Below, piece by piece: positions 1 to 29,480 of a DNA stretch of 64,000 bases. Numbering within the stretch: the first letter of the stretch is position 1; every line of letters begins with the position of its first letter. The DNA is taken from assembly GCA_950295325.1 (NCBI GenBank), contig OX485803.1, positions 59,349,554 to 59,413,553 on the forward strand, written 5' to 3'. The position numbers and the translations under genes were made by a program. The DNA is from Polytrichum commune (lineage: Eukaryota > Streptophyta > Polytrichopsida > Polytrichales > Polytrichaceae). Below the pieces are notes generated by a model. That model ran no database searches. It was not told the origin of the DNA and saw only the letters and a program-made list of their open reading frames with translations.

Positions 1-1762
1 ATCAAAAAGTGCACGTGAAAAATGTACTGGCGGCTCCTCAAGATCGCGCAAGAGTTTTGCAAATGAACCCACCGTGTGGTTTGCATCGCCAGGGTAAAAA
101 TCCAAACCATAATGGGCATACTTAACGTCCACATGGCCATGGGCAATCATACCTAGAAAAAACAAACGATGCGTGAACAACAAAAATGAAATAACCACTA
201 AACTGATGTATGATGTTGGACATTTGCCAAACACACCCAAGAAAAATGGAGAGACTTTGAACACATCGTTGTGATTTCTTACAAACCTGTGACAGCTACG
301 GGCAACTTGAAGAGACCATCCGTGGCCTTTATTTTGCGTGCATAACAAGGGCATGCGGTCTTGGCGTGGTCCATTTTATCATGGATGACTGTGAGAACCT
401 CTGTCGGCCTCATTATAGATAGTGCACGGTTCTTGTAGTAATCTTGGCGGTGTGCCTCTTGATTGTTGACATGCTCAATATTTTTTTTTGGTGTCTAGTA
501 TGGGATTCAGTACCAATGGGGTGGGCGTCTTGAAGACCTTTGTATTTCTCACACGCCGTACACCTAGCGAACTTGTCACCAGGTCTCTTCAAAATGTATT
601 CAGCAAACTGTTGGTTTTTAATCACACTCAACTTGGACAAAGAAATGGGCCCACATCCCGCTCTGCGACCCACTTCGTTGATGTCCGTTAAGATGTTCTT
701 CCATTTTGTGCCTATGGGCAACACCATTTGAACAACTTTCTCCCCTGTTCACAATGTCCTCGTCTTGTGGGGCATTGCATCGGCCAATGGCACTATGATG
801 GTGGAGAGTGTCGCCGAGGCTTGTAGTGTAGCCTCCCTAGGTTTCTTTGTGCCCGAGTTGCCATGAAATCGAGAGCGGCGACCCAACGATGAATACTTCC
901 TAAACCTATAAAAATCAACCTTGGAGACAGCATGGATGATATACCATACCGTACAACACACTTCGACATTTTCAAAGGTCACCACCTTATGACCATGGAT
1001 ATCAAGGTGCAAATTTCTGTGCACCTCGAATTTCTTTGCGGATCTCATACGAAAATCCGCAAGCCACATCTCTTCACGAAGTGACCTAATTTTTTCGCGT
1101 GGGAAGAATTGGCAACATTTCCTCGCGCAACAGTCCTTGGCGGACACGAGACGGATAGAATCGTCTCCCAATATGCGATCCCGTCGTCACTCCTTATCAC
1201 CGCGAGGCACGCGGTTAGAAGCATATCTGCGGAGGCCTTTGCGAGGAGGTAATTTGGCCAACAAAGCTGATTTCGCTTGTTTGTGCCGCCGCCCATGATC
1301 CCACAAGTTTACTTCTTCATGGAGAACACGACGAAGGGGCCATCGACGTAAGGAAAATCTCCACATCACCGGAACCTCGAGTGGAAGCAAAGAATTCAAG
1401 ATGCACACACCAACATCATCGGCACCGAGGGGGTTGGCATCCATACATTCACGGGGATCGGAGTTTCTACATATGCCATTTACCACCGGGACACCAAGAT
1501 CGTTAAGTAGAACGACATCAAGGCCCACCCATTCCTCTCTTCCAAAACCCGCACACAATGGAATGTCATCGTTGTCATCACCGGAATGTAGACATTGTTC
1601 GTGCCCTTCAAAAGAATCATCGGAGGATGCATCCACAAGCACCCCCAGCACATTTGTAATGTCAGTACCGTCCACCGACGTCAACGTTAGTTCGCGTTCA
1701 CTATCGGAAGACGATGCACTAGTTGACAACTCCAATGAAATATATCCCACATGCATCGCCAT
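1..1762 (-). pseudogene. DUF7869-type transposase-like gene, 5' part, broken
   Basis: Read leftward from ATG at 1762. The N-terminus is acidic and Ser-rich. Then come a Cys-paired block (DCCARKCCQFF, near 1105-1140), a second Cys pair (FARCTACEKYKGLQ, near 560), and a block reading VIHDKMDHAKTACP (near 350-400). After a 134-nt intron (153-286) the protein continues with MIAHGHVDVKYAHYGLDFYP and runs off the window. This order resembles the widespread eukaryotic DUF7869 transposon-associated proteins, from my knowledge of the family and not from a search. The rest of the catalytic part would lie left of base 1. Breaks are an in-frame TGA at 1187-1189, another at 749-751, and a one-base shift at the A9 run (T on the plus strand, 481-489). 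Palindromes lie just upstream. It is divergent from the gene at 5644 and is likely the element's transposase. Confidence 0.6.
153..286 (-). other. Intron of the DUF7869-type gene
   Basis: On the minus strand the sequence reads ACAG|GTTTGT at 287/286 and TTTTTCTAG|GT at 153/152. Joining the exons in phase 1 gives a Gly codon and keeps frame, from VAVTG into MIAHGH. The intron is short and has a pyrimidine-rich acceptor. It contains no palindrome, unlike introns of the rightward gene. Confidence 0.65.
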
Positions 1763-1904
1763 TGTTCCTAAACAAACAACCATGGCATGAACAAACAATA
1801 CCCATTCCAATGTTTAAAATAACGCACAAATTATTTGTCAGAATATATGGCCCAGAAATCACAAACAACTCTTGGGGCATCCATGGGAAGGCCTCACACA
1901 TAAA

Positions 1905-2252
1905 GACGAACGCACGTTCGAAAACAATATGAAGACACGGAAAAACTGCATGGGATTCCCACGGCAATTGACACCGGCATCTAGTTATATATCATTCGTG
2001 AAGGGTGTCGATATGAGTTGTTGTCCACCCATGGCAAAATGTTTGAGGCGGTTATGTATACGAACGACCGTTCGTAAGTTTTTGGAAAAACAGTATATGC
2101 AAAAAACACTTTGACAAGTCGACATTGTGATAACTCAAGCAATACGTTTTCTGAAGACATGCCACCCTCTGTCGGGGAACTGATAGGGTGTACCACATCA
2201 CGTCATACCCTAGTAAATAATGGGACGGCATATTTACGAACGACCGTTCGTA
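1905..2252. repeat. Three 20-bp palindromes upstream of the DUF7869-type gene
   Basis: Sites are at 1907-1920 (core CGAACG-CA-CGTTCG, outer bases degenerate), 2059-2076 (TACGAACG-AC-CGTTCGTA) and 2235-2252 (the same site again). They lie 145-490 bp upstream of the ATG at 1762 on the minus strand, so they could act as operators or binding sites in its promoter. They belong to the family that clusters upstream of, and within, the rightward gene. Confidence 0.9.
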
Positions 2253-2348
2253 TCTCTCTGTCATACTTTGGTTATATACAGGAAGGTGTCTGTAAGTGTA
2301 GTGTTGGATGCGATGGAGACCTAATATATGCTATGAATGTATGTAATT

Positions 2349-2412
2349 GTGTGTGTGTGTGTATATATAAATATATAAATATATATATATATATTTACAC
2401 ACACACACACAT
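2349..2412. repeat. Compound (GT)n(AT)n(AC)n microsatellite
   Basis: A GT run grades into an AT-rich run and then an AC run. The whole tract is near-palindromic and could form a hairpin. ORFs read through it are artefacts. Confidence 0.9.
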
Positions 2413-3115
2413 ACACAATAAGCTAAACTCGAGTAAAAACATGTTGTGGAGGCCCCTAAAATTATAGGGATGATCATATGATTCAAATCGAAACATGCCC
2501 GTAATATGCTCACCAAGCGCGTGAAAACCATTAAAAAGTTTGGTTAATCCACAATGAACTAATCATATCTAGATGTAAGTTAGGGCTTAATTCAAATGTA
2601 GCCATACATGTCAAAATAATGCATTAAAATGGCATGTGTGGAAATGTTTAATTAATTTGGAATGGTGAATTTGATAGAGTAATCATAAGAAATGAAACCA
2701 TACTTACGACAAGTCACACTTACAATTATGTGTTTTACATCCTACGAGAAGTATGTGCATGCTCATAGCTGAAAGTGTTGATTTAAACTAAAGTCTTAAG
2801 ACATGCATGTTATAATCATGAGATTAAGTTTGGATTGTGTGATCAAATAGCACTCAATACTATTAAGGGGAGAGATGGAGCATTTCAACACTCACTTTTC
2901 ACCCGAACCAAAGCTTTATCCGAACTCTATTAATTTTGAATCTCAAAATGACAATTATTGGCATGATTCTCAATTATTATAGTTATTGGGAACCAAATAA
3001 AGCAATTTCCAATCCAACCAACATCGATAGACCACTTTGACATGCCCATAGACCACAACATGGACACATATATTAAGAAAGGTTAGTAAGAAGAAGAAAA
3101 AATGTAGGAATGCAA
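2413..3115. other. No gene recognised
   Basis: AT-rich sequence between the divergent promoters. No ORF, RNA or clear repeat is recognised. Confidence 0.5.
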
Positions 3116-3206
3116 GGTTTAGGGTTTAGGGTTTGTGATGGTTGTGTATGTGGTTATAGGGTTTAGGGTTTGTGATAGTTGTGTATGTGGTTTTAGGGTT
3201 TGTGGT
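3116..3206 (+). repeat. Short tandem repeat containing TTTAGGG motifs
   Basis: Two and a half units of about 45 bp. Each has GGTTTAGGGTTT followed by GTGAT(G/A)GTTGTGTATGTGGTT. The embedded TTTAGGG matches the plant telomere repeat. With only two to three motifs it is an interstitial minisatellite and not a telomere. Confidence 0.7.
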
Positions 3207-3315
3207 GTGGTCGTTAATACGTTACATTACACACACAAACAATATTGACTCCTAAAAACCTTGTATCACACTAACTAAACTTATGAAACTGACAGTTGAT
3301 GGTAGCCGTTATCCA

Positions 3316-3824
3316 CAATCTCAAATTGGTCCTTTATGAATGTAATATTTATTTGAGAAACCATGGTTCAAATTGAAAGAAATCTCGTTCCCGAAAACTG
3401 TATAATTGAAAACCTCATATACACATCCTTAGGGGTGGATTCTTCATTGAAAACCTATGATATCATACATTTGATGCTAGCGAAATAATGACCAATATGG
3501 CTCATTGGTTAAATGCAATTACATCATTGTTAAAAATTAAAGTTCAATGCACTATACGATTGTTAGTTCAATTTGACACCTAATTAAATTAATTGTGGTC
3601 CTATTGGAAATTAAATTAATTGACGTCCTCCACCTCTTGCAAGAAACCGAATAGCCCCTCTCAACAATGTCAAATTGGGTCCTTTATGTACTATGTAATA
3701 TATATTTGAAGAACCATGGTTCAACTTGAAAGTTATCTCATTCATGAAAACTCTATACTTCAGAACACCATATCCACATCCTTGGGAGTGGATTCTTCAT
3801 CGAAAACCCACTAAATGACATACA
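3316..3824 (+). repeat. Pair of diverged direct repeats (3316-3480 and 3669-3824)
   Basis: Both segments share in order: TCAAATTGG(G)TCCTTTATG, ACCATGGTTCAA(A/C)TTGAAAG, a GAAAACT(G/C)TATA block, CATCCTT(A/G)GG, GTGGATTCTTCAT(T/C)GAAAACC and a CATACATT end. The GTGGATTCTTCAT string matches the terminal repeat of the elements at 50054 and 51066 (GTGGACTCTTCAT), so these are probably fragments of a related TIR family. Confidence 0.65.
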
Positions 3825-4886
3825 TTGTGCAATACTCATTAACTTAAAGTTGTTTTTTAAAATATGTTTACAAGGAATACAAATGTAAAGGTACTAAGGG
3901 GGCACGGCACACAAAATTCATGTCTTCATATTAAGCTCTTGAAGTTATTGTGATTAATGCTTCCATCCCATATTATACATATACATATGCTTTGTATTGC
4001 CTTCATGATTACTTCTACATCCATCTCCCATCGTATTTCCCCCCATCCCCCGATGTCCCCATCCTATCTCCTCCCATTTCCCCCATCACCCATCTCCACC
4101 CATACCCGCACCCCTTCACATGCCACGTGGAACGACGCCATTGGAAGGGTGCCAATGGACCGTCACCATTGGAACGTCGCCACGTGGCAGCCATGGGGAA
4201 ACCCTAGCGGCGGGGGCGGCTACCACCCCACGCCCCTTCTCTCTCCTCCTCATTGTCATTTGGAACCGAGAGAGGAGGAGCGGAGAGCTTAGCGTATTCG
4301 GAGCGAAGCTCTTGCAGATTTTAGAGCCTTCTTCATTTTTGCATCAAGTTGTGTTTGAGAGTTGCATATTTTGCTTTAGAATTGACTGTTTGTGAGTAGA
4401 GAGCTTGAGGGTTGTAAGAATGTTAGTAGAGCTGAAGAGTTGCAATATTGGGGTTTGAAAGCTTGAAGCTTGAAGCTTGTAGCTGCACCAGAATAGGTGA
4501 TAGGGTTTGCACATAAAGAGTGAGGGCTTGAAACTGTGATAAAGGAGTGAGTGGTGCAAGGGCGCATCTCAACAACCAACATTGTACATTTGTGTGTAGT
4601 TTTGTGTTTTTTCAGCAAGCCAGGAACAGTTTGGGTTTAGAACACTTCAATGTGAGTGGATCAATCCTTCTAAACTCACAACCCACATCCTGAATTGGTT
4701 CATTGTTGATTTCCATTTGTTTTGTTTGTATTATGAGCTTTGGCAGGTTTTGCATGCATTCTGAGCTTTGATATTCATTCTGAAGTTCAATTGTGTTCTG
4801 ATTATTTTTTCTTTTTTCTTCAATTCAATCATTCTGGCCAAGCACTTGCAAGCATTCTTGCGAGCGGAAGGAGTATAGTCCATCGT
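3825..4886. other. Upstream region of the rightward gene, no ORF recognised
   Basis: The 4020-4290 part is C-rich, then G-rich, with repeated CCATTGGAA and CCACGTGG strings. 4290-4860 is GAGAG/TTGAG-rich. It could be promoter or untranslated leader of the gene at 5644, but no core promoter element can be assigned. Confidence 0.35.
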
Positions 4887-4916
4887 ATACGTATTCGTAC
4901 ATATACGAATACGTAT
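4887..4916. repeat. Perfect inverted repeat, 13-bp arms, 4-nt loop
   Basis: Left arm ATACGTATTCGTA (4887-4899), loop CATA, right arm TACGAATACGTAT (4904-4916). It lies 42 bp before the first palindrome of the 5' array. The outer TACGAA and TTCGTA strings are shared with that palindrome, but in a different arrangement. Confidence 0.9.
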
Positions 4917-4958
4917 ATATACGGACAATATGCAAGAAAATATCCAAATTAGCCACAT

Positions 4959-5611
4959 TTACGAACGATCGTTCGTAATTGCGAATACATAGTCTGAGCC
5001 AATTTTACGAACGCTCGTTCGTAAATACCCGCACCCTAAAGCACTAGCCAAGCAATTTACGAACGATAGTTTGTAAATACCCTAAACCCAATGCACAAAT
5101 CCAGAACATTACGAACGCGCGTTCGTAAAGTAAGCTGGGAAAACCAACAATTAAACAATTCAAAATTCAAACCCTCTGTAATATATTTAAACCAAATACA
5201 CAATTACTTAGAAATATTTAAATATGAATACCTACTTACGAACGCGCGTTCGTAAAAGACTGCAATCTTGTTTTGGCGGACCAAAACACATTTATTTACG
5301 AACGATTGTTTGTAAAATAAGATGAAAAGATTCTGAATCAAATAGATGAATGCCTTATTTTATGCAACAAACCCAAAATGCAGATAGTAATGTCGGGCCT
5401 GGTGGGTATCACTCACGAACGAACGTTCGTGTTTACTATTGTAAACATTTATTTTATTGTGAAGATGGTCTGAAATGTGAAAAAACAACCCAGAAAACCA
5501 CCTCCTTTACGAACGATCGTTCGTAAAGATAATCAAAATGTATTGCAACAAATACATTCATAATGTGTAGTATCTTGGATTTGCATGTCGTTTACGAACG
5601 CTCGTTCGTAA
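4959..5611. promoter_or_regulatory. Array of nine 20-bp palindromes upstream of the ParB-like gene
   Basis: Sites start at 4959 (centre AT), 5005 (CT), 5057 (right arm degenerate), 5109 (CG), 5236 (CG), 5296 (right arm degenerate), 5414 (AA, CACGAACG arms), 5507 (AT) and 5592 (CT). The consensus is TTACGAACGNNCGTTCGTAA. The last site ends 32 bp before the ATG at 5644. The distal four are spaced 46, 52 and 52 bp. The eroded second copy also has a series of sites upstream of its start codon. Binding-site or operator function is inferred from symmetry, number and position. Confidence 0.85.
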
Positions 5612-5643
5612 ACTCAACACTAAATGTTTATATTCTGTTGCAG

Positions 5644-6939
5644 ATGGCAAGATCAAGCAGAAGCGCGATTAAGATTTTCGCAGTGCAGGTCGATCGCCTC
5701 CCAGAGTCGGTGTCCGACGATAACGGCAACGACAACTTTGTTCCCAAGGACGACTTCATGGGGGAGTGGACGGCTCTGCCAGAGAAGTCCGTAGACGGCC
5801 TCTTCTGCATGCGATTCATCTACGAGCTGGAGACAAGACCGGACCAGCCCGAACAGTGGGTTCAAATGAAGACGTGGGAGATAGAGTCCATAGAGGCCCA
5901 GGGGGATTATGTAATTCTAGACATGAAGAACAAGAAGGATCATATCAACCTCTTGTTGCATTACCAAAAACATACATTCTCCTACCAATACGCCCAAATG
6001 AACGTAATCGAAGATGCCAAGCACTTCGACCTGGAGGGCCTCTTCTCCAAATATGCGTTGAGCCCATACTGGACAGCAAGGAAACTAACCGCCCTGGCAT
6101 TGAACATCTCCAAATACAATAGTGTGGTCACTGAGGCCAACAAGAAGAAGAAGAGCCCCAGGAAACCATCCACATCAAGGGCAGGAGGCTCTAGAAGTGC
6201 ACCCAGGCCTGTGCCTTCCGCAAGCAGGGCGACGGAGGGCCCTAGCAGACACTCCACGCCATCGAAGAGGACAAGGGACGAGATGGAGAAATCGGGAGTA
6301 ACAGAGACCGCGGAGGTGACCTCGCATGTCGTAATGCCTACCCCCTTGAAAAAGGGCGAGAACCCTGACGTTGTGAAGGCCACGAGGATCCTTCGAGACT
6401 TCAACAACTACTCGAAGGATTGCTAGCCCATGGGACGCCACTTCACATTCAATGTGGACTGCTTCAAGTGCGAGATGTCCCCCAACAAATGGGTGGTTCG
6501 GTCTCGCGAGAGCGGTGGTGTGAAATGGCAGATAAATAATCTAATGAACAACGTCAAGTGGGATAGGCAGACCGTCTGCGTCATGCCGAAGGGGCTGACA
6601 TCCCGTCCGACGGAGAAGGACTGGCCACGGATCCAGAATGGAGAGTTCTGGATCATAGACGGACAACACAGCTTGGAGGCGTCCCAGATAATCCTCAAGG
6701 ATGACAACTTCCAGCATGACTTAAAGGCAGACTTGCGCTACTGGAAGGCGTTCTTGGTGTAGTCGGACGATTGGGACAAGCTGCGGAAGATTTCCACCTT
6801 CCTCAACTCCGGCAACAAGATCAAGGCCTTCGAGGCGTCGTGGGCAGCCAACATAGTGGCTGCAAGGGACGTCTGGGTCGCCCACGGGTGCCCCCCTAAG
6901 GAAAGGGAGAACGCGAAGACGCCGTCTCCACAATGGAAG
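5644..6939 (+). pseudogene. Element gene B exon 1: ParB/DGQHR-like domain, two in-frame TAGs
   Basis: The start is ATG at 5644 (MARSSR). Copy 2 has the same start (MARPNR), and extending upstream would translate a palindrome. The 432-codon exon has a conserved N-terminal region, a basic Ser/Pro/Lys linker (about residues 165-225), and a region with WIIDGQHSLEAS (D339, G340, Q341, H342, S343). DGxH followed by Arg is the signature of ParB/sulfiredoxin-fold and DGQHR proteins. Here Ser replaces Arg, and copy 2 also has HS. TAG codons at 6424-6426 and 6760-6762 interrupt the frame; copy 2 has Trp at both places. The exon ends at AAG|GTGAGT. The protein may bind the palindromes, as ParB binds parS; that is inference. 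Confidence 0.6.
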
Positions 6940-7060
6940 GTGAGTTTACGAACGAACGTTCGTAAACATCTTTGACATTCAAAATTTCAAGTTCTTTGAC
7001 ATTCAAATTTACGAACGTGCGTTCGTATTTTGTACATTACTGATGCCTTTCTTGCTGCAA
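6940..7060 (+). other. Intron 1 of gene B with two palindromes
   Basis: The donor is AAG|GTGAGT and the acceptor region is TTGCTGCAAG/CATTC. Palindromes start at 6946 (centre AA), immediately after the donor, and at 7009 (centre TG), about 33 bp before the acceptor. Copy 2 has the same donor position, the same GCAAGCATTC junction and two eroded palindromes. Canonical GT-AG removal (exon from 7062) puts exon 2 one base out of frame; the conserved frame needs the exon to start at G7061. Confidence 0.55.
6946..7028. repeat. Palindrome pair in intron 1
   Basis: 6946-6965 (perfect 20-mer, centre AA) and 7009-7028 (centre TG, last base T instead of A). The two sites are mutually complementary as well as self-complementary, so in RNA they could pair across the intron. 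Confidence 0.9.
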
Positions 7061-8386
7061 GCATTCTGCGACGCGATGGTGGACAAGTTCTCCTCCATCG
7101 ACATGAAGTCTACAACAACCAAGTCTGTCATGGAGCTCAAGGGTGAGCTCCGCCTCATCTGTTGCAACAGGGACACTTGGGAGTTGTGGACACAATTTTT
7201 TGATGCGCACAGCTCGGGCGATCTGGTCAACCCCGACACCGAGGAGAAATACAGCGCGGAGAAGACCGGGGAGGCCCCTCCATTACTGAGGGAGTTCTTC
7301 AGGTCCCTTCAAGGGTTAACAGAGTCCGAGTTGCAGAGGTGCGCGGTGCATCTTCTTGGGAACACAGTGGGAAGAACCATCCCATACCCGAAGATATTTT
7401 TGAAGAGGCCAAGACACAAGCCCGGCACGTATTCCATCAAGGAATGGTGCGAACACCGCAAGCTAAAGACTGCTGCAATGAGGGAGTTGAGCGCCCTAAT
7501 ACCAGAGTACGCACTCATCCTAGCCGACGGGGAGATTAATTGGGCCAGCCGGAAGATGTTCAAGGTCGACTACAACATCTCCGGAGCCTCAATGCGTTGT
7601 CTTGTCAAGGAGCACGCCTCCATTTTGAAGCAGAAGGGGAACAAAAGGACAAAGAAAACCGAGACTGATCCCCAGGAGGTGGAGCAATACAAAAGGTTTT
7701 TGGCGCGGAAGAGGATGGCCACATTCGAAGGAGTGGCCAGATTTTGTTTGGTGACAACCGGAGTGGAGAGGGTCACATTTTCCAAGTGGGACGGGACCCT
7801 CAACAGGGCCGAGGTGAGGGAGGATCGACGGGGGTGCCCATTTGCCCTGATCGATTTCAGGGGGATCCCCGGTGTGTCGAGGCAGGGGGGAAAGGACATG
7901 CCCTTCTACAACCCCTTCATGGCCAAGTTCAAGGAGCACAAGTCGCCGGACATGAGGGAGCCTCATGTTTGGCTGTGGATAGTGGAGCAGGAGAAGCTCT
8001 CTGCTGTAGTCGACCTGTACGAGAGGTCGATCAAATTCAAGTACAACATCTTCCACAGCACTTACGTGCCCGCCAAGACAGAAGGGATCGTGGCCATCAA
8101 CGAGGCCAGGGGAAATAAACAGGTGGGGGCGGTCAGCCTCGTCTTCTTGACGTACAACGCGCTTCGGAATGGGCGAGCCCCTGTCAGGGCGAATACTACG
8201 TTCAAGAAGATCTACAGCATCCCCCATCCCCCTCCCAAGGATCTGCTACAGGAGACCTTGTACATTCTCCTCCCGGCGCTGGAACTCAGGTTGGAGTTCT
8301 ACGTCTCCGTGTTGCAAAGCGTCGCAATAAGCGGAGAGACCGTGTACAACGTTTGTGGAGGCAGTAAGTTCATGTACGCTGCGATG
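7061..8386 (+). pseudogene. Element gene B exon 2: conserved region with relic methyltransferase-like motif
   Basis: This exon is open for 442 codons. It shares blocks with copy 2 along its length: NTVGR and FLKRPKH-type strings early, EDRRGCPFALIDFRGIPG, DMREPHVWLWIVE, NIFHSTYVPAKTEGI and IPHPPPKDLLQE. It ends in GETVYNVCGGSKFMYAAM (G857 onward if exons are joined), and exon 3 continues with MLGLVVNNF. That junction resembles the C-terminal motif I of beta-class amino-methyltransferases (VLDPFxGSGTT...AAxxLG). ALIDFRGIPG sits where a DPPY motif would be expected but lacks its residues. ParB plus methylase fusions are known in phages, so a catalytically dead relic is possible; this is a weak pattern match. 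The ATG at 7043 is an alternative start. Confidence 0.55.
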
Positions 8387-8527
8387 GTAAGCTCTCCAAC
8401 TGAAATTTACGAGCGCTCGTTCGTAAAGTTCACCTCAACCTGTTTTTGTGTTTGATGAAATTGTTTCTCGTCGTTGATTTTTACGAACGTACGTTCGTAT
8501 ATTCTAACGTATTAGCTTGGATCTCAG
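8387..8527 (+). other. Intron 2 of gene B with two palindromes
   Basis: Donor ATG|GTAAGC and acceptor ATCTCAG|ATG. Removal is in phase 0 and keeps frame. Palindromes start at 8407 (TTACGAGCG-CT, one mismatch) near the donor and at 8481 (centre TA) near the acceptor. Copy 2 has the same donor (CCATG|GTAAGC), the acceptor ATTCAG|ATG and four eroded sites. Confidence 0.8.
8407..8500. repeat. Palindrome pair in intron 2
   Basis: 8407-8426 (A to G in the left arm) and 8481-8500 (last base T). They lie 20 bp after the donor and 28 bp before the exon, repeating the layout of intron 1. Confidence 0.9.
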
Positions 8528-9316
8528 ATGCTGGGCCTGGTCGTCAACAACTTCGTTGACGCCGTCGACGAAGAGGACTTCCAGATGCACAGGGCGAAGG
8601 CGTCCATGATGGACCTGGAGGACATGTCCCTCGCAAGGACGGACATCAACATGCCCGTCGACGAGTGCATGCCCGCCATGGAGACGGACGACGACGAGCC
8701 CGCGCCCTCCTACAACGTCGAGGCGATCCTCCGATCATTGGACGTCACGCCTCTGCGAATTTTGGGGCCGTCGGGAAACCCATCCGACGTGCAGGGGACT
8801 CCGGGTGGATACACGGGGTCGTCCGCGGGGACAACCCAAGATGTCCTCCCCGCGCGAACGTCTGGGGCGGAGGCATTCGGCACTCCCGGGGGATGCTCGA
8901 CATCGGTGTCACCTAGGCCAGTCGTGGTTCCTAAGATGGAGAACCTCGACCTTCTGGACCAACGCTCCCGCCCGTCGTTGGACCACTTCCGCAACACTAG
9001 GCGGAAGATGAAGAAGACCCCCTACGTGGAGCTGCCTCCGGGGGCAATAATCGAGGTCTCCGACGAGGACGAGGGAGATATGGAGATAATGGTCGAGCTA
9101 GGGGTCGACTTCGACAAGAACAAGTGGGTCAAGGAGGAGGCCCTCTCCGTCGCCGAGCTTAACGCCAAGCTCGAGCAGAAGATGAAGGAGGACATGGCGA
9201 AGGCTGTTGAGGAGAATGCGAAGAAGATGAGAGCAATTCAGGAGGAGCTAAGGCAATCCAACGAGAAAACGGACGCCATCCTCACCATGCTCAACAAGAT
9301 GCAGAGTTTCTTGGCG

Positions 9317-9329
9317 CCCCCCCCCCCCC
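9317..9329 (+). repeat. C13 homopolymer at a frame break
   Basis: Thirteen consecutive C residues. The reading frames before and after, both supported by composition and by copy 2, are out of register by one base. Replication slippage or a sequencing error would explain it. Confidence 0.85.
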
Positions 9330-9528
9330 GCCGGCTTACCCCTTCCCTGGAGGATACCCATCGCAATACCCCCAGCCAGGCCAGTACCCCCCGCAGGGCC
9401 ATTTCCCAGGAGGACCATCACACCAATCCGCGCCCCACCCTACGCCTGTTGGGACTCCTCCGCCCCCAGAAGTTCCCTCGACCACCTCCCACGATGCTGT
9501 CGCAGCGGTCATCCAGGAGGACGAAGAT

Positions 9529-9548
9529 TTACGAACGCGCGTTCGTGA
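9529..9548. repeat. Palindrome inside coding exon 3
   Basis: TTACGAACGCGCGTTCGTGA, one base off a perfect palindrome, read in frame as LRTRVRE. Copy 2 has an eroded palindrome at the matching place (25408-25427), flanked by matching residues (IQEDEDL against MQEGQDL). Confidence 0.9.
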
Positions 9549-9904
9549 ATCTTCAGGTCCTGCAGTCCTCACCCCTCCCCCTCCAAGGGTAGGACTGCAC
9601 TCAGACACCGACACAACATCTTTCACCATCGTCCCCAGGGTAGTAGACAAATAGGGCGATGACTCTGCGCGACACACTGACATGGTCATTGTGGAGGACA
9701 CGCAGGGGAGCCCCAATGACGCAGCAGGAGAGCAGGGGATGGACATGGAAGAGACACCTGCCGCGTGGATGGAGGATGTCCAGATGGACGCGCTCGACCT
9801 GGGCGCCGAGGATGACAACGTGCTGCGCATCCAGCCGACACATGCCTCTCAGTCGGAGCGTGAGGCCGACTCCATGGAAACGGAGGCGGCTGCGGCTGTG
9901 GAGG

Positions 9905-9924
9905 TTACGAACGCGCGTTCGTTA
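9905..9924. repeat. Second palindrome inside exon 3
   Basis: TTACGAACGCGCGTTCGTTA, read as VTNARSLI. It lies 60 bp before the exon 3 donor. Copy 2 is not recognisable this far. Confidence 0.9.
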
Positions 9925-10011
9925 ATCGTTGAGGAGGGACCTGCTGCTCGGTCCAACGCCGCTTCCCTTCCCCCCGATGACGAGGTAAATCTCCTCTGAG
10001 AATACCATTTT

Positions 10012-10031
10012 TTGCGAACGCGCGTTCGTAA
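10012..10031. repeat. Palindrome after the exon 3 donor
   Basis: TTGCGAACGCGCGTTCGTAA, one mismatch, 27 bp after the donor. Confidence 0.9.
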
Positions 10032-10312
10032 CCTCACTAACATCGCGGTGTTTTTCTCTTCATCGACACCCCCTTGCCCACGCGAGCCCTCTTCAGCGAC
10101 CCCCCTTATGGGCGACCAATTTTGTAGGACACGGCATCATTTTGCCTTAGGAAAATGTGATAGACTATCACGTGAGAAATGTAAATACTCAACGGATTAA
10201 TATATGGGCCCATGTTATCTGCATCGCATTGCTTCAAATTCTATGCCCTCGACCCCTTCTCGTATATTGTGGATGTTGATGCGATTATGTTCATTCTTGT
10301 GTATCCACCTCA

Positions 10313-10424
10313 TTCACGAACGCTCGTTCGTGAAAGGGTGCGACCCCGTGTCCACCTCCTTCACGAACGACCGCTCGTAAATGCACCGCCCCCGCAGCCT
10401 TCATTCACGAGCGGTCGTTCGCAA
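10313..10424. repeat. Three palindromes before the FCP1-like exon
   Basis: 10313-10334 has the extended form TTCACGAACG-CT-CGTTCGTGAA, a perfect 22-mer. 10360-10380 (TCACGAACG-AC-CGCTCGTAA) and 10404-10424 (TTCACGAGCGGTCGTTCGCAA) have one or two mismatches. Spacing is 46-47 and 44-45 bp. Confidence 0.9.
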
Positions 10425-10558
10425 GTGTGCCCTTGTGCACATTTTCCTTGCACTCTCCTCACTTCCTTGTCTTTTCCCATAATGCATCGTCTTCATTTTC
10501 TACGCAAAAATTTCATTTTTGGATCATAGCATTAAACTAGTCGCGTTGTTCATCACAG

Positions 10559-11326
10559 GACCCCCCGGAGATAGGTCGCAACCCCTTGACCAGTGGACCT
10601 CACACTTGGAACAAGCCTTTCATAGTTTTTGACCTCAACGGGGTCTTGTGTCACACCCAACACATCCCCAGGGTCCCCACGCGTCCCTTCCGTCACCCCG
10701 ACGAAAGGGACTATGACGGCGAGCTCGACACCCTCATAAACCGCAAGGCTGTCCGCGCCCGTCCCGGCTTGCGGGACTTCCTTCGCGAGGTGGTCGAGTT
10801 CGCACACGTCGTTGTGTGGAGCTCCATGGTCATGGAGAACACGGAGCCCATCGTGGATTTCTTGTTCCGTGATCTCCCGAGCCTTTGCCTCGTCCTCGGC
10901 CAAGAGGACTGCGACGAGCTGCTCGACGAGAAAGGCCGACCGGTGCCCAAGTTTGGCGGTCGAGGCGGAGGACAACAGTTCCTCAAGGTCCTCCGCTCCA
11001 GACTCTGGCGAGGCGTCCCCCGGCTGCAGGGGACACCCCACGGGTGGTGGCCGACTCCTGAGAATACCCTCCTCATCGACGACAACCCCACCAAGAGCGT
11101 CTTGAACCCCCCGGGCAACGTCATCTTCCCGGACACATGGACCGGCGATAGGCAAGACACATTTTTGGTCGATAGGCTAGCCCCCTACCTTATAAGGCTC
11201 GTGCTCCACGCCGGTAGCATCCCATTTTTTGTTAGGTCCAACCCCTTCGGCAATGCGGCACTAAGCCCCCGCGGTAATGTATATAAGAGCATCATGAGGC
11301 TCGCCAAATTCAATAAATTGATTTGA
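10559..11326 (+). CDS. FCP1/HAD-like phosphatase domain (gene B exon 4 or separate gene)
   Basis: Open for 255 codons with no internal stop. HAD motif I is FDLNGVLCHT (D25, N27), motif II is VVVWSS (S88/S89), and the motif III/IV region is LLIDDNPTKS (D174, D175), followed by NPPGNVIFP. These are the landmarks of the FCP1/NLI-interacting-factor group. Asn in place of the second Asp of DxDx(T/V) is also seen in some plant FCP1-like proteins, which suggests capture from a host gene. The nucleophile Asp is kept and the acid/base Asp is not, so activity is uncertain. No ATG precedes motif I, and the exon joins the upstream one in phase 0, which favours a fusion over a separate gene. It may end at TGA 11324-11326 or be spliced earlier (GCG|GTAATG near 11272). 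Confidence 0.7.
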   Translation, partial: DPPEIGRNPLTSGPHTWNKPFIVFDLNGVLCHTQHIPRVPTRPFRHPDERDYDGELDTLINRKAVRARPGLRDFLREVVEFAHVVVWSSMVMENTEPIVDFLFRDLPSLCLVLGQEDCDELLDEKGRPVPKFGGRGGGQQFLKVLRSRLWRGVPRLQGTPHGWWPTPENTLLIDDNPTKSVLNPPGNVIFPDTWTGDRQDTFLVDRLAPYLIRLVLHAGSIPFFVRSNPFGNAALSPRGNVYKSIMRLAKFNKLI

Positions 11327-11403
11327 AATTCCTCCATGTCTTTGCTTCTTATCATGTGGTTCACATATCTAATGCTTGCTCTGTTTTTGGATGTCTCTTT
11401 TTG

Positions 11404-11436
11404 TTTTGTTGTTGTTGTTGTTGTTGTTGTTGTTGG
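11404..11436 (+). repeat. (GTT)n microsatellite in a pyrimidine-poor intron
   Basis: About ten GTT units immediately before the acceptor at 11445. Confidence 0.9.
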
Positions 11437-11445
11437 CCTCCTTAG

Positions 11446-11969
11446 TCTGCCCCCATATGTGACGCCCCGGTACTCGACGGCCCTTCCCGTCCCATCTCGC
11501 CCCCTGGCTCCCCTTCCCGCGACGTCACGGACTTCCAAATGCCATCCCTCTACCAGTTCTCGGCGGTGGACGCGGCCTCGGCAGTGGATTACTCCCGCGA
11601 CGTCGGCATCGACGATGGCGTCGTCAACAGCCCGCCCCCGCACTTGTCGCCCGCGCCTACGCCCCGTCGCCCTCCCCCCTCTCCAAGGAGAAACGGACGC
11701 TCGTTCATTTGGGGCACCTCTCGCCCTCTAAGGACGACGCCGTCGCTCGTCGCGGGCCGAGCCGGCGTCTCCGCATGGACTTTGCCCCCGCCGACTCCGT
11801 TCCTCCCCCCGCAACGTCCTCCGCGATCGTGGGCCCTCCAGGCCTCGACTCCCCCCCCCCCCCCCCCCCCCCGCCATCCAACAGTGCAATAGTTCCATCG
11901 GCTCCGGATGCTCCCGTCGACGCCCCCCTAGTTCCCACCGTTCTCCGCATGGACGTCCCCAAAGCCAAG
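11446..11969 (+). pseudogene. Element gene B exon 5: Pro/Ser-rich
   Basis: The exon follows the acceptor GGCCTCCTTAG. It is read as SAPICDAPVL through AVDYSRDVGIDDGVVNSPPP. The part after about 11700 reads better in a second frame (RLRMDFAPADSVPPP, TVLRMDVPKAK), which ends at AAG|GTGCCC in phase 0 with the next exon, so one frame change lies inside. Copy 3 has a matching exon at 58604-58957 (AASIIDYSKG and GVVDSPHPS). A degenerate palindrome (GGACGCTCGTTCA) lies near 11694-11707. No known domain; likely disordered. Confidence 0.5.
11851..11872 (+). repeat. C22 homopolymer
   Basis: Twenty-two consecutive C residues within the Pro-rich exon 5. Its length is probably unreliable. Confidence 0.9.
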
Positions 11970-12121
11970 GTGCCCTCCTCACCCCTAAACCCCTTTCCCG
12001 CTTTTGCTTTCCTTGTCTTCCGTGTGCATGCCGTTCTCTTTACGAGCGCCCATCCCAAACCGCCCTCATTATTTTCCCCACTCCATTCCCATTCTTATCT
12101 TCCTATGACGTTGTTTCGCAG

Positions 12122-12430
12122 GTGGCGACCCGCTCGCTTGGTGCCCGGCCCTCCTCCACGTCCTCCTTGGATAGGCACGCCCTCAAGGCCGCATCTTCCG
12201 AGTCCGATCGTTGTCTGGCCCTCCGGAGAAGCGCAAGACGTTCCCTTTCGCAAACGCCCTCGCATTCTACCTATAATACCACCTCGTACAATTCAGGAGC
12301 GCATCCTGAAACATGCAAGAACGACACATATTCCTGTCCAGGCAACACACAAGGATACAGTCGTGGGCCTGAGATTTTTAGAGCCATGGAGGCCGCCAAA
12401 AAAAAGGACTTAGCCGCCAAAAAAAAATAG
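12122..12430 (+). CDS. Element gene B exon 6: last exon
   Basis: The exon follows acceptor TTTCGCAG and starts in phase 0 (VATRSLGARPSS). It is Ser/Arg-rich, then TTSYNSG, YSRGPEIFRAMEAA and a Lys-rich end (KKKDLAAKKK) before TAG at 12428. Copy 3 at 59079-59349 matches (SSSYNSGG, YGRGVEIFRNVEAM, Lys/Ala-rich end), which supports both acceptor and stop. No domain is recognised; the basic tail could be nuclear-targeting. Confidence 0.6.
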   Translation: MATRSLGARPSSTSSLDRHALKAASSESDRCLALRRSARRSLSQTPSHSTYNTTSYNSGAHPETCKNDTYSCPGNTQGYSRGPEIFRAMEAAKKKDLAAKKK

Positions 12431-13784
12431 TGGGTCGGACTAGTGTGACTAGAAGCGTACCAGTGGGACGGACTCCCTAAATGGGCTTAGGTGTAGAACA
12501 TATTTAAGTGCTTATTTTCTATGCTATTCCAAGTTACTCAAGACATTGATGGTATTTCCATTATAATTGTATTTCAATCCCAATTAATTCATTCAACTTC
12601 CATTCATTCTTCGCATCTTCCCTTCCATTCATAACGAGTTGTCATTTCATACGCAACTATTTTCATGTATGCCTCACATTTTTGTTCACTTCCATGCCTT
12701 TATGTATAATAGTAGTAGCATACCATTATACATATGGGATTTTTAGTCGTCATTACTGGTCCAATTTTGAAATGTGCATCCTTATATAGTCTCATAATCA
12801 ACAAAAAGTCTCCAATTACCGAATATAGTGTTATATAAGTCCTAGGAAATCGTCCTATGTCAGTAACGTAACAATGTAAATCTACCATACTAGTAGATTT
12901 GCATATATTATGGTGACACAGTTGAAGTTTCCAGTGACATAAGTCAATTGTCCATGACGCATATGCTTGTAGTGCAACATATGCGTAACCCATATAACAT
13001 TATTCAACATCATTTCATTGTTATTTGGGCCTAACAAATAAAGTTGTTCGATCATCTAATTAAAAGCCTTCAATACAAATGTTCTGACACTTTCACTCTG
13101 GATATGGGGATTCACTCATGACAATGTACTACATACAACTCACCACCCCAACCCCATTCATTTGTCATTGTAAATGATCCACTTGACAATATTGGACGGA
13201 ACTTGCATACATCTAACATCATATTACATGCCTACTTCTCAACTTTTGCATCATCTCTATTGTGTATGCAACCCCATGATGATGCATCCCATGGTTAGTG
13301 TTTCCTTCATTTGTCCCATAAGCCAAACTTATTCAATTGTCTTCCTTGTGAGCATGTACAAGGTTAATCACTTACAAATTAAAAATGTTGAAACCCAAAC
13401 CCACACTTAGTTCAAAGGCATCACATTATGTAATAATGGCGGCCGCCAAGTGAGACTCATTGGTTTTGTAATACCAATATCTCTGGACATCCAAAGGCCA
13501 CACACAAGTTAGTCCAACTCCCTCAATAAACCTAAGTGCAGATCGCATGATGTACGCCTTGCTATACAAAACACCCTAGTTCCCTTGCCCAATGGGGTCT
13601 CTAGTCGGGAGTCACCCTAACTTGTGATCTTAAGAGCCTCAAACTCCCCGCAAGCTACCATTCCCACTTACTAGCCTTGGGAGCCTCTCAATTCGGAACA
13701 TGCCCTTACTAGAGGAGGAAATCTAAGACATGATTGATAACATGTGAGCTATAACATGTGAGCAATGACATTAGATAGAGTACA
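12431..13784. other. No gene recognised; right end of copy 1 not located
   Basis: AT-rich after about 12500. The right boundary of the element should be here, but its left end is outside the window, so a terminal repeat cannot be matched. Confidence 0.4.
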
Positions 13785-14099
13785 TTATCCATCTATAAGG
13801 GTCATAATCTTCCACCACTCTCCGGGTGGGCACTGCTCCCTCTTAGGATATTTTCCATCTTTGCCAAATCCCTCAACGCGGCCACCATTTTCCACAGGTT
13901 TTTTGATCACTTCTTCATTTGCAACCAAATGATTTCCCAATTGCTCATCACGCTCCTCATTATCATCACACGAAGATGATTTGGAAGATTTGTCCACAAC
14001 AACCTCCATAAGCCTTCATTTCTCCCACTTAGACACATTTTCAAAGTGTTTTTAACTCTCATGCTATCCTCTATGAATATCATGTCTTTATTTTTATTT

Positions 14100-15020
14100 T
14101 ATTTTTTATTTTCAAAAAAATAGCCTATAGGCCTTAGTCCCTTCACAATAATCCAACAATAAACATTTTGTGTCCTCTGCATCAAAATTATCATTTTTTT
14201 CATCCAACACCATTGCGTAGGCGACGCATCTGAACACACGTATGCAATGCAAGGCCTCCTTTCGCTCCACGCTTCCTCAAGCGTTATGGAAACCGACGTC
14301 TTTGTTGGACATCGGTTTCGTGTGTAAACTGCATTAGCCACCGCTTCCGTCCAAAAGGATTTTTTGAGGTTTTAAGCATTAAGCATGCTCCTTGCCATCT
14401 CCACGATGTTACGATTCGCACGCTCCGCCACTCCGTTTGTTGAGGCATATATGAAGTGGATATTTGCTTCTCGATGCCATAATCCTCCCAAAAACGGTTG
14501 AATGCCTTGGAAACGAAGTCCTTGCAATTATACGACCAAAATGCCTTGATTTTGTGCTCTGATTACGTCTCTATGAATGCCTTGAACTCCTTAAACCTCT
14601 CAAAACATTCTCCTTTGAATTTTAACGCATACAATCACACATTCTTTGAGAAATTATCAATGAAGGTCACGAAATACCGTGCACTGCCTATAGATGTGGT
14701 CCTCATAGGGCCACACATGTCGGAAGGCACGATTTCCAAAGGCTTGGTTGTTCGCCTCTCCCCTTGTTTGGAAACGCAACCCTATGTTGTTTGCCTTCGA
14801 TGCACGTTTCGTAAAACAACGAGGATGTGGGGTAAGAAATTTTACCAAGGTTCATGTCAGTCACCATGTTTTGAAATGTATGGACACCTTTCACGTTCAA
14901 ATGGCCAAGACAACAGTGCCAAACTTGAGCACACCATCTCCGGTTGGAGATTGCATCAAATTGGTTGCATTTGTCGCGACCTTTGCTAGCACCTTTAACT
15001 ATGTTGACCATTTCTCAATT
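14100..15020 (-). pseudogene. copia integrase fragment
   Basis: The pre-integrase zinc region (WHCCLGHLNVKGVH...CIEGKQHRVAF) is followed by broken pieces of the core and then TNGVAERANRNIVEMARSML, ANAVYTRNRCPTK and IVKGLRPIGYFF. Several frameshifts and stops. Confidence 0.8.
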
Positions 15021-15041
15021 CTAGCAAGGGTCACGAGCGCT

Positions 15042-15966
15042 AACCCTTTGTATTCCACCATGCGAATGGTTAGCTCCCCATACCGCGGACCTCTTAGCCC
15101 ATAGGTGGAGGACCAGCCCTCCTACTTTGAATTCAAGATTCTCCCCTTAATTGGTATCCAATGATTAGATGTGGATTTCCATCCATGGAAATTCGATCTT
15201 AAGTTGATAAGTGCGTTGCTAGAACAACACTATAACAACCCGAACCATACTATGCAACTATGCCCTCATGTTGGGCCAACACCCGTAGAGGTCATACCGT
15301 TCGGCCTCGGGTGGGTTTGGCTAGCTATGCCACCTCACCCATATAAGCTTCTAGAACTTTGGGCAGGGCCCCTACCCCACTGTCAAGTAATATTTTGTCT
15401 CTCTACAAGGGTTGGCGTCCAGTAGACATTTTTTCTTAGCCGCCAAGGCTAGAAGCCCCTAGCAGCTTTAGACCTCCATAACTTTGTCGTATGGTCTTTG
15501 CTTCTAACAAGCGTTCATTCCACGTAGATGCCAATGGACCCCTCACTTGCTTCATTTAAGCAAGTATTGAGAAAGTTATGGTTGTTCAAACCTTGGCAGT
15601 CCCGGGAGCCACTCCCATGTCAATGTCCCAAGACAACGTCCCACTTAAATTGTCATATCTCCTAGCTCACATATCCGATTGAGGTGTTATTGAGTATTCT
15701 AGAATTCCGACGCCATGAGCTACTTTTAACTTATGGCCTTATCTTTGTGACTCTTAGTTTCCGTAGGTGGGAACACCCGGGGCCCTCACCCACACTATGA
15801 GCACGTGGGCCCTCTCACCAACGGCGCCACAAGTGTCCTCCCGGATATCATACCAGGGTCTCCCTTATGTCCATGGTATTTCAGGCACTCCTCATGGAAA
15901 GGTGCATGATAATATCCGCTTTGTGCTCTTTTATTGAGAAAAAAAATCCTTATAAGTTGCTTTGAC
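15042..15966. mobile_element. About 0.9-kb insertion splitting the copia remnant
   Basis: Alignment with the plus-strand remnant breaks after AIAIA (near 15966) and resumes near 15041 (the TCACGAGCGC region). The inserted part holds an ACAACCCGAA motif and GC-richer blocks, as in some LTRs. It could be a solo LTR; no TG...CA ends or target duplication were established. Confidence 0.45.
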
Positions 15967-16027
15967 ATGGCGCAATCGCAATGGCTTCACCGTTGCAAGA
16001 TTTTACAATGCATTTATTTAGGTTGAA

Positions 16028-16423
16028 TTAGATCTTCAAATTGTTCGATACAAGATTGCTCATAGATAGCAAATTGACATGCAACTTGGACATATTTAAC
16101 ACATCTTTAATATGAATATTGTTGATATAATCTTTCACGATTGTTTCCATTCCATTGGCTTTGACAACACTATCATTTTTCAAATGTACATTTTGTTGAG
16201 CGATTACCTTATACATATCAAATGTGGTCTTATGCAAAGTCATGTGTTTGAATGCTCCCAAATCCATGATCCACTTGCACGCAATTTTAGAATGTGCTAC
16301 ATTATGTATTACAAATGCGTAGTTGACACCGTCCCCCATATTTTTCATATTATCTCGTTCTTTGTTCTTTATTTTGTAGCAAAAATGTGTAACTTGGTCC
16401 GGTTTATTGCAATGGAAACACAA
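16028..16423 (-). pseudogene. copia zinc knuckle and protease fragment
   Basis: A CxxC knuckle (CFHCNKPDQVTHFC) is followed by the protease segment WIMDLGAFKHMT. The active-site DSGAS is changed to DLGAF, so the protease is not functional. LHVNLLSMSNL follows, as in the other remnant. Confidence 0.8.
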
Positions 16424-16439
16424 TTTTACATCTTGGTGC

Positions 16440-17093
16440 GGAAATGAGTTTCCGCCTTTTCTTTGTTACAACGCCATGGCGGTATCCTCATCTTGAAGCT
16501 ACTGTTCTTTGCGCTTTGATATATCATATATCAAACGCGGCGACATGTACTCCATCCTAAGTTTTTTCCATCGGTATTGTTTCTAAGGCGGTAATCAAGT
16601 ATTCATATGACGTCGGCAAACTCTCAAGCAAGGTTATGACAATGTTTTAGTCTCTCACATGTACGTCCAAACAAGTAAGTAGATCTGCAAACGTCTTTAC
16701 CTTGTTGATGTGGTCCAACAAGTCGTCATCTTCTTGCATCTTGCACGTAAAAAACTTGTGGTGAATGAAGAAGATGTTGGATAAACTATTCGTCTTGTGA
16801 ATGTTGCAATGGGTCTTTAACGCTTCCGCGGGTCCTTTGCAACTCTTGATGTGCACAAGTAGATTGTTTGTCAAGTTGAGGCCGATGATGAACATTGCCT
16901 TCTTAATGAGTCTTTGATACTTCTTTAGCACTTTGGGATCTGCATTGGAAGGTGGAGCTTCTTCGGATCCGTCCGCAATGTCCCAAAGATCCATGAATGC
17001 CAACAACATTTTGATTTTGAACTTCCAAAGGTTGAAATTTATTCCATTGAAATTGTCGATGATTCTAGCAGCCTTGCTTTCAAATGATGTCAT
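16440..17093 (-). pseudogene. copia gag fragment
   Basis: Starts MTSFESKAARIIDNFNG, with NLWKFKIKMLLAFMDLWDI, PPSNADPKVLKKYQRLIKKA and FFTCKMQEDDDLLDHINKVK, the usual copia gag landmarks. The frame from 17093 ends at a stop near 16647, then gag continues degraded toward the zinc knuckle. Confidence 0.85.
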
Positions 17094-17220
17094 TGTAGGC
17101 TGAGATATATTCTCAAAACACTCAAATTAGCATTTCTTGGCCTATAATCAATCCAAACCAAACAAAAAAATAAATTCCGGCATTCAAAATATGTATTTGC
17201 ACCTCAATGTAGTGGAAACA

Positions 17221-17405
17221 TACCTATATGTTTTCAAATGGGTCTTTTGGTCTCGAAAATGTTAGATCTTCTACACCTCAAGTTAGATCTTCTACTTCTT
17301 AAGAGAGGTCTTAAGACACTCAAATGACTCAAACAAGATCTTCTTCACTTTAGATGTCTTATACTTTCAAATATCTCAATTTAGATCTTCTACACCTCAA
17401 GAGTG
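17221..17405 (-). repeat. Degenerate repeats in the copia leader
   Basis: Repeated TTAGATCTTCTAC(A/T)CCTCAA and related strings. On the minus strand they correspond to the GAGGTGTAGAAGATCT units of the array at 55430-56150, so this leader array is a family trait. Confidence 0.65.
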
Positions 17406-20029: not shown

Positions 20030-20330
20030 CTTGGAATGTGCATGTATTTTTTTATTTAAAAAAAAATGAATGTTGAATCTAACAACAATATCAAAAATCC
20101 TATCCAAACCCTCATGCCAAACATGCAGTTGTTGATTTTAAATTATAAAGTTCTAGTAAAATAAAACATCCATTAGGTTGGTTGCACTTTATGTGAACTC
20201 CCCACTCATATTATTTTATACAAAGATGTTATTATTTATACCAAAATACCTCGGTTATAGGATACTAGTGGATGCATCTCCAATAATTTTGACTCCCTCA
20301 TTGATCACATGAGAGCACTCCCCCTTCATA
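20030..20330 (+). repeat. Dispersed repeat, copy 1 of 2
   Basis: Shares CTTGGAATGTGC, AAAGATGTTATTATTTAT, CCAAAATACC and GGTTATAGGAT(A/G)CTAGTGG in the same order with 34848-35160, same strand. No coding content. Probably two copies of an unidentified dispersed element. Confidence 0.7.
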
Positions 20331-26470: not shown

Positions 26471-26505
26471 CTGAATCAAAGCACCAAACAACGATTTAGT
26501 TAAGT

Positions 26506-26696
26506 CCACAAACATGCATTCATAAAAATAAGCAAACATCATTTAAACATGGTTGGTGTTATACAAACGAGCATTCGTAAAGGCTTTGTTTATTTATAAT
26601 GTAGAAATTAACAAGAAACAAAGGGTTACAAACATACATTCATAAGTCAATGTCCAACATTGAGGAAAAATGTGATTTACGGACATTCATTCATAA
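26506..26696. repeat. Four eroded palindromes in intron 2, second copy
   Basis: Sites at 26506-26525, 26562-26580, 26626-26645 and 26677-26696, for example TTACAAACATACATTCATAA. The differences from consensus are mostly CG to CA or TG. The intron spans 26471-26724. Confidence 0.8.
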
Positions 26697-26724
26697 AGCT
26701 TGGTTGCATAATAATCAAGCTTAC

Positions 26725-28046: not shown

Positions 28047-28086
28047 TTGCACATTCCATCAAATAGTGTTAGTGATATCCAATATT

Positions 28087-28146
28087 TTCACGAGCGTTTG
28101 TTCCTAAAAAATAAATATGGTAGTGTTTACAAACGGTCGTTCATAT
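28087..28146. repeat. Two eroded palindromes in intron 1, second copy
   Basis: 28087-28107 (TTCACGAGCGTTTGTTCCTAA) and 28127-28146 (TTACAAACGGTCGTTCATAT). The number and the position near each splice site match intron 1 of copy 1. Confidence 0.8.
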
Positions 28147-28152
28147 ACCTAC

Positions 28153-29452: not shown

Positions 29453-29480
29453 CTCCACATAATGAATTTCAATTCCATGT

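Follow-up and report, generated by a model that had tools for sequence, protein, structure and literature searches.

Several known systems pair a protein with repeated copies of its own site. In En/Spm and Mutator, an element-coded protein (TnpA and MURA, respectively) has several sites in its own element, located at or near the termini, where they allow the ends to be recognized. In bacterial ParB-parS systems, palindromes cluster near the gene for a ParB-fold protein, a dimer of which reads each palindrome. VANC21 is reported to bind YAGTATTAY in non-coding regions of VANDAL21, causing loss of methylation (PMC5735166, PMC10398659), and ParB-like domains are described in accessory proteins of algal transposons, for example, Sola1-1_Ec32 (PMC12477816). 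Here we analyze a 64,000-nucleotide stretch of the moss Polytrichum commune (assembly GCA_950295325.1, contig OX485803.1, positions 59,349,554 to 59,413,553 of the forward strand), referred to below as the window. Within it, one 20-bp palindrome recurs 22 times in and beside a gene (gene A, 5644-12430) that resembles part of an element that may be mobile.

RESULTS

Copy number and confinement of the palindrome

An earlier reading of this DNA (the original prediction) had reported about 22 copies of a 20-bp palindrome in 8.5 kb, with nearly invariant 9-bp arms and a free two-base centre, confined to one element apart from eroded copies in a relative at 25 to 30 kb. We searched the whole window for TTACGAACGNNCGTTCGTAA, allowing up to 3 mismatches. 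The search returned 26 matches, 22 at 1904-10424 (unit A) and 4 at 26561-29910 (unit B). Seven of the unit A copies are perfect, while eight carry one mismatch, four carry two, and three carry three; each of the four unit B matches carries exactly 3. Dinucleotide-shuffled windows gave 0 matches in 100 of 100 trials. Beyond units A and B the window holds no match with ≤3 mismatches and none with ≤4, and the sole 5-mismatch match outside them is a half-site, TTACGAGCG, at 12040, downstream within gene A. The 7-mers ACGAACG and CGTTCGT occur 19 and 18 times in the window, and all but one of these occurrences fall inside the 22 sites; the remaining one, at 29726, lies within a unit B site. A pattern that tolerates CpG decay, used with ≤2 mismatches, likewise found no copy in the remaining ~51 kb outside the two units. 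Both the predicted number and the predicted confinement are upheld within the window; the first copy begins at 1904 rather than 1905.

Anatomy of the site

The 22 sites provide 44 half-sites. Positions C4, A6, and C8 are invariant (44/44), G5 and G9 are present in 42/44, and A3 and A7 are present in 41/44, so that the near-invariant core of each half-site lies within ACGAACG. The outer positions vary more (T1, 38/44; T2, 35/44), and an extra T stands just outside in 32/44. Near invariance therefore applies to the core of the 9-bp arms and not to their outer T1 and T2. The centre is nearly, but not wholly, free: position 10 is A or C in 34/44 half-sites (P = 0.0004, the two halves of one site not being independent), and 10/22 centres are self-complementary (P = 0.04).

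Outside the site, similarity ends. Over all 231 pairs, mean identity of the 25-bp flanks was 0.27 on the left and 0.28 on the right, and the highest value, 0.68, was that of the right flanks of the copies at 5005 and 5057. These two and the copy at 5109 are spaced 52 bp apart with partly shared flanks and represent one local duplication. Because flanks otherwise match at the random level, the sites are dispersed and, save for that duplication, do not form a tandem array.

Gene A and the placement of the sites

Gene A introns were modeled from reading frames and splice-like signals, with no transcript. A splice-like 3′ stretch ending in TTCTGTTGCAG directly adjoins the ATG at 5644; we therefore infer a leader intron, which would hold nine sites. 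The features of both units are as follows (palindromes are given without strand).

1187 to 1783, minus strand: gene 1, 5′ part of a divergent open reading frame (ORF), continuing in broken form to base 1
1904 to 1923: palindrome copy 1, 3 mismatches; 121 bp upstream of the minus-strand ORF 1187-1783
2058 to 2077: copy 2, 1 mismatch
2234 to 2253: copy 3, 1 mismatch
4959 to 4978: copy 4, perfect; putative leader intron; relative without in-register site
5005 to 5024: copy 5, perfect; putative leader intron
5057 to 5076: copy 6, 2 mismatches; 52 bp from both neighbours; right flank 68% like that of copy 5
5109 to 5128: copy 7, perfect; in register with 29891
5236 to 5255: copy 8, perfect
5296 to 5315: copy 9, 2 mismatches; in register with 29715
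5413 to 5432: copy 10, 3 mismatches, two of them symmetrical; in register with 29619
5507 to 5526: copy 11, perfect; relative without in-register site
5592 to 5611: copy 12, perfect; 32 bp before the ATG; in register with 29481
5644 to 6943, plus strand: exon 1, with DGQHSLEAS and LNSGNKIK; weak GmrSD_N match; two in-frame TAG codons; end chosen by frame continuity
6946 to 6965: copy 13, perfect; 2 bp into intron 1; in register with 28127
7009 to 7028: copy 14, 1 mismatch; intron 1; 28088 of the relative near but out of register
7062 to 8386, plus strand: exon 2, no family match above cut-off
8407 to 8426: copy 15, 1 mismatch; intron 2; in register with 26677
8481 to 8500: copy 16, 1 mismatch; intron 2; in register with 26506
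8528 to 9984, plus strand: exon 3, coiled and proline rich; probable frameshift at a C run at ~9320; one in-frame TAG
9529 to 9548: copy 17, 1 mismatch; within exon 3; decayed counterpart 25407 at the same coding position
9905 to 9924: copy 18, 1 mismatch; within exon 3; aligned stretch of the relative without site
10012 to 10031: copy 19, 1 mismatch; intron 3; relative not alignable
10314 to 10333: copy 20, symmetrical change on both sides; intron 3
10361 to 10380: copy 21, 2 mismatches; intron 3
10405 to 10424: copy 22, 3 mismatches; intron 3
10559 to 11326, plus strand: exon 4, FCP1/NIF-type phosphatase domain (PF03031); possibly spliced on before its stop
12040 to 12059: half-site remnant, 5 mismatches overall; presumed later intron
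25407 to 29910, minus strand: decayed relative (unit B), exons 1 to 3 plus 13 eroded palindromes

Copies 1 to 3 sit upstream of the divergent minus-strand ORF. The other 19 belong to gene A, and 17 of them fall in predicted introns against 2 in exons (P = 5e-9): 9 in the leader intron, 2 in intron 1, 2 in intron 2, 4 in intron 3, and 2 in exon 3. The test set 1,604 bp of introns (leader taken as 4880-5643) against 4,843 bp of exons, 6,447 bp in total, with borders of introns 1 and 2 that deviate by a few bases from the final gene model. The nearest sites upstream of ORF starts are 32 bp (ATG 5644) and 121 bp (minus-strand ORF 1187-1783) away. A second, unrelated palindrome-rich stretch, of the CGTATACGTATTCGTAC type, occupies 4868-4920, just upstream of the leader array. 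We also considered the palindrome as the source of the intron 1 donor; this is unneeded, as a donor at 6944 also keeps the frame, and the relative has GT at the matching place.

Persistence and decay of the sites in a relative

Sites in unit B were sought with the CpG-decay-tolerant pattern at ≤3 mismatches, which gave 14 places; 13 were kept, and 29467, overlapping 29481, was dropped. They start at 25407, 26506, 26561, 26626, 26677, 28088, 28127, 29481, 29619, 29715, 29790, 29842, and 29891 and are distributed as 6 in the leader, 2 in intron 1, 4 in intron 2, and 1 in exon 3. Twelve of the 13 are within 2 mismatches of the tolerant pattern, a level reached nowhere outside units A and B, so that the predicted eroded copies are real. 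Exons 1, 2, and 3 were matched in unit B by tblastn, exon 4 was not, and exon order is identical in the two units; nucleotide identity is 65.7% in the longest (2,166 columns) of three matching segments.

In one alignment, 8 of the 19 gene A sites (5109, 5296, 5413, 5592, 6946, 8407, 8481, and 9529) have a unit B site in register. Divergence at codon positions 1, 2, and 3 is 0.28, 0.245, and 0.52 (stretches 6082-6939 and 7775-8377); this third-position excess indicates that the gene was long under selection at the protein level, and the shared sites, being in register across a third-position divergence of 0.52, predate the split of A and B. In the leader, A and B agree at 102/180 site positions versus 190/521 of the rest, and in intron 1 they agree at 27/40 versus 36/82. 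Erosion is largely of the CpG type: site CpGs are intact in 84/88 cases in A and 15/52 in B, and 39 of the 55 changes at unit B sites are transitions at CpG. The CpG observed/expected ratio is 0.73 to 1.06 in the exons and 3′ region of gene A (5644-12430) and ~0.5 in 12431-25000, 30000-64000, and unit B; we read the CpG richness of gene A as that of a young or little-methylated sequence.

The encoded proteins

The clearest family assignment is that of exon 4, which matches PF03031 (FCP1/NIF) with an E value of 1.3e-16 and 61.2 bits against a gathering threshold of 21.8; it also resembles dullard-like TIGR02251, below the cut-off of that model. FCP1/NIF-like phosphatases have the catalytic motif DxDx(T/V), which in exon 4 reads DLNGV, with N for the second D. 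Some plant NIF-like proteins likewise carry N there, and catalysis by the FCP1-like domain may be altered by this change.

Exon 1 encodes IIDGQHSLEA followed by LNSGNKIK. In a weak alignment of its second half, IIDGQHSLEA and LNSGN fall onto positions 54 to 108 of the GmrSD_N model, with the R of DGQ(H/Q)R replaced by S. The same half matched DUF6551 over the DGQH stretch at an E value of 0.29, below cut-off. Searched as a whole, exon 1 gave no profile hit at E ≤ 1 and nothing in PDB at E ≤ 1. GmrS itself is described as having a predicted ParB/Srx fold; its DGQQR motif has been compared with DGQHR, and an FxxxN motif follows further on (PMC4619093). Exons 1 and 2 had no match to a ParB family in Pfam or NCBIfam. 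The Pfam scan covered exons 1, 2, and 4 and exon 3 to 9592 (first frame).

Other hits were taken as chance: for the second half of exon 1, aminopeptidase P chains in PDB (E = 0.65 and up); for exon 1, phrog_7856 (E = 0.19, sub-threshold); for exon 2, arginyltransferase NF002341 (E = 0.023, sub-threshold) and PDB 2kd2 (E = 0.47); and, for the coiled-coil stretch of exon 3, HAUS-augmin3 (E = 0.0018), Prominin (E = 0.0019), and TcdA_TcdB (E = 0.036), all under their cut-offs.

The minus-strand ORF 1-1783 gave no match in a Pfam scan. It may be transposase-like, and it seems to resemble a family of moss genes whose products carry a DUF7869-type domain (IHDKMDHAKTACP..., MIAHGHVDVKYAHYGLD). A literature search pairing "DUF7869" with "transpos" found no paper.

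Searches beyond the window and other features

Exact copies of TTACGAACGNNCGTTCGTAA were found as 4 single hits in IMG/VR and 4 single hits in 257 Gb of bacterial and archaeal genomes, where ~3.7 are expected by chance with equal base use. No second copy (≤4 mismatches) was present in the 3 to 14 kb around each hit. These results lend no support to the idea that the site came from a prokaryote or a virus. No relative of exon 1 or exon 2 was confirmed in IMG/VR by a search reaching close relatives only, none of exon 1 was confirmed in phages, and none of the leader array was confirmed in plasmids. In a literature string search for TTACGAACG, none of the matches listed looked related by title or start of abstract.

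Elsewhere in the window, a MIR171_1 microRNA precursor match at 45527-45621 (49.7 bits; gathering threshold, 48) fits a land-plant genome. Copia-type fragments lie at 16647-17093 (minus strand; gag) and 57365-57814 (plus strand; gag_pre-integrase/integrase, the integrase part being below its cut-off).

DISCUSSION

The palindrome as a proposed protein recognition site

The reading we prefer, at a rough probability of 0.45, is that a sequence-specific DNA-binding protein recognizes the palindrome as a dimer, that this protein is most simply encoded by the element itself, and that the site is used for self-recognition. A symmetrical dimer would bind, each half reading (T)TTACGAACG(A/C), at sites scattered over non-coding stretches of the genes that belong to the element. 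Restriction of the site to one gene family within the window argues that the reader would be supplied by that family, and the first candidate would be the DGQH/FCP1-domain protein of the 5644-11326 gene. Occupancy of many sites at once might label the element as self and prevent its chromatin from closing (anti-silencing); alternatively, it might regulate the element's own genes, an autoregulation comparable to that by VANC in VANDAL. The original prediction had proposed a dimeric DNA-binding protein, and the arms, the near-free centre, the random flanks, the preference for predicted introns, and the persistence in unit B agree with that proposal.

Several results weigh against this reading. 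The changes seen at the sites tend to leave base pairing of the sense RNA intact, a tendency not expected of a DNA site bound by a dimer. Eleven of the 19 gene A sites lack an in-register unit B site; they include exon site 9905 as well as all four intron 3 sites, a region in which B could not be aligned. Agreement between A and B in intron 2 is no better at sites (26/40) than in the rest (66/104), and the comparison was not blind, since unit B sites were picked by likeness to the pattern. Spacings of adjacent sites show only a weak helical trend (10.5 bp at phase 0, P = 0.006, chosen post hoc; P = 0.125 with the period left free). Profile and structure-database searches revealed no recognizable DNA-binding domain in exons 1 and 2. 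The match of the second half of exon 1 to GmrSD_N, with TAG read as a residue, is sub-threshold (E = 0.071, 13.7 bits, cut-off 33.2), and its unit B counterpart gave no hit at E ≤ 10. Three TAG codons interrupt the reading frame of gene A, which probably also shifts at the C run; the copy in the window is probably nonfunctional unless these are assembly errors, and its in-frame stops mean that its sites would be readable only by the protein of another copy. Finally, region 1-14000 has 162 inverted pairs, and no terminal inverted repeat was recognized among the 25 longest of them; the left end lies beyond the window.

Alternative explanations

The main rival, which has some support, is that the palindromes act in the transcript, as intronic RNA hairpins with a stem of 8 to 10 bp and a GNNC loop that are recognized or processed at the RNA level. 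All 22 unit A copies fold as RNA, at -2.3 to -11.7 kcal/mol in sense, although folding as RNA holds for any DNA palindrome, and the concentration of gene A copies in predicted introns (17/19) suits this idea as well. Where folds differ by >1 kcal/mol between strands, sense is better at 6/7 A sites and 6/8 B sites; the pooled 12/15 favour sense (two-sided P of ~0.035, with a post hoc cut-off), which adds weight to the hairpin explanation and takes some from the protein site. One copy, at 10361, nevertheless folds far better in antisense (-9.5 versus -2.3 kcal/mol). CpG changes at unit B sites also lean toward those that keep G-U pairs, being C-to-T in 28 cases and G-to-A in 11 when read in sense (P = 0.009), versus TG 30 and CA 37 at coding CpGs (Fisher P = 0.009 against the sites). 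This bias comes from the four unit B intron 2 sites, however, with the other nine standing at 15:11, and the rest of that intron already has more T than A when read in sense (75 T, 53 A). At those four sites (26506-26696), all CpG changes are C-to-T in sense (13:0). The primary sequence is, moreover, fixed beyond what mere pairing would need. We judge the hairpin explanation rather unlikely.

Equally doubtful is a host reader: either a transcription factor or a silencing protein of the plant, exploited by the element or directed against it. Sites 32 bp and 121 bp upstream of two ORF starts and in predicted introns would suit such a factor, since plant enhancers and leader-intron enhancers can lie at such positions. 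A long exact site read by the host would, however, be expected elsewhere too, and the remaining ~51 kb of the 64 kb examined hold no copy even when CpG decay and 2 mismatches are allowed.

Functionless local amplification, in which one palindrome was multiplied by duplication within gene A, accounts for the 52-bp spacing and partly common flanks of 5005, 5057, and 5109, but the remaining flanks are random and the sites common to B predate the A/B split, making it improbable for the set. That the palindrome is a tiny mobile unit (a palindromic insertion element) or a recombinase crossover site with a 2-bp centre is very improbable: two copies do lie in an exon (9529 and 9905), the relative lacks a site where 9905 aligns, and two arms flanking a 2-bp centre recall the layout of serine-recombinase sites, but exon copy 9529 and seven leader or intron copies, eight sites in all, are shared in register with the relative, exon order is the same in A and B, and none of nine protein pieces scanned has a recombinase domain.

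Implications and comparison with known systems

If the palindrome is indeed the site of an element-encoded dimer, this would be another plant mobile element that recognizes itself by a repeated exact motif, with a protein architecture different from that of VANC and a site much longer and symmetrical, and it would offer a well-defined DNA target for studying how transposons evade silencing. It would also give ParB-fold proteins, which are on record for algal transposons, a defined site to bind. A bolder and quite improbable version has an element-coded, ParB/Srx-fold protein, switched by nucleoside triphosphate, load on the intronic palindromes and spread along the element, while its FCP1-like domain modifies chromatin or the tail of RNA polymerase II and thereby lets the element evade silencing. 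It would amount to a eukaryotic self-marking system resembling ParB-parS, with sequence-specific escape from silencing.

Set beside En/Spm TnpA and Mutator MURA, gene A differs in that its sites are internal and lie mostly in predicted introns. With bacterial ParB-parS it shares the clustering of one palindrome near a gene, here one with a sub-threshold match to a ParB/Srx-fold model; parS differs from the palindrome in sequence and length, and gene A lies in a plant genome. The algal ParB-like/methyltransferase accessory proteins are described as encoded on the strand opposite the transposase and as suggested to bind their own transposon (PMC12477816), which recalls the putative arrangement here. 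Their partner domain differs, as here it is FCP1/NIF-like, the ParB/Srx match here is weak, and the scanned parts of exons 1 to 4 gave no methyltransferase match; the passage on the algal proteins mentions no array of sites (PMC12477816).

VANC/VANDAL of Arabidopsis is, with the algal ParB-like proteins, one of the closest precedents, and although we met no report of this site in the literature searched, a transposon-coded protein with a repeated binding motif of its own is already known from it. VANC proteins carry DUF1985/DUF287, for which the scanned parts of gene A (exons 1, 2, and 4 and exon 3 to 9592) gave no Pfam match at E ≤ 1. VANC motifs are 8 to 9 bp, non-palindromic, and tandem, whereas gene A has a dispersed 20- to 24-bp palindrome, and its random site flanks, save for the one local duplication, do not match a tandem-repeat arrangement. 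The likeness lies in the logic: in VANDAL, a transposon product is reported to bind a short exact motif repeated in the non-coding parts of its own family, with an effect mostly limited to that family (PMC5735166, PMC10398659), and the palindrome of gene A is likewise enriched in predicted non-coding parts (17/19).

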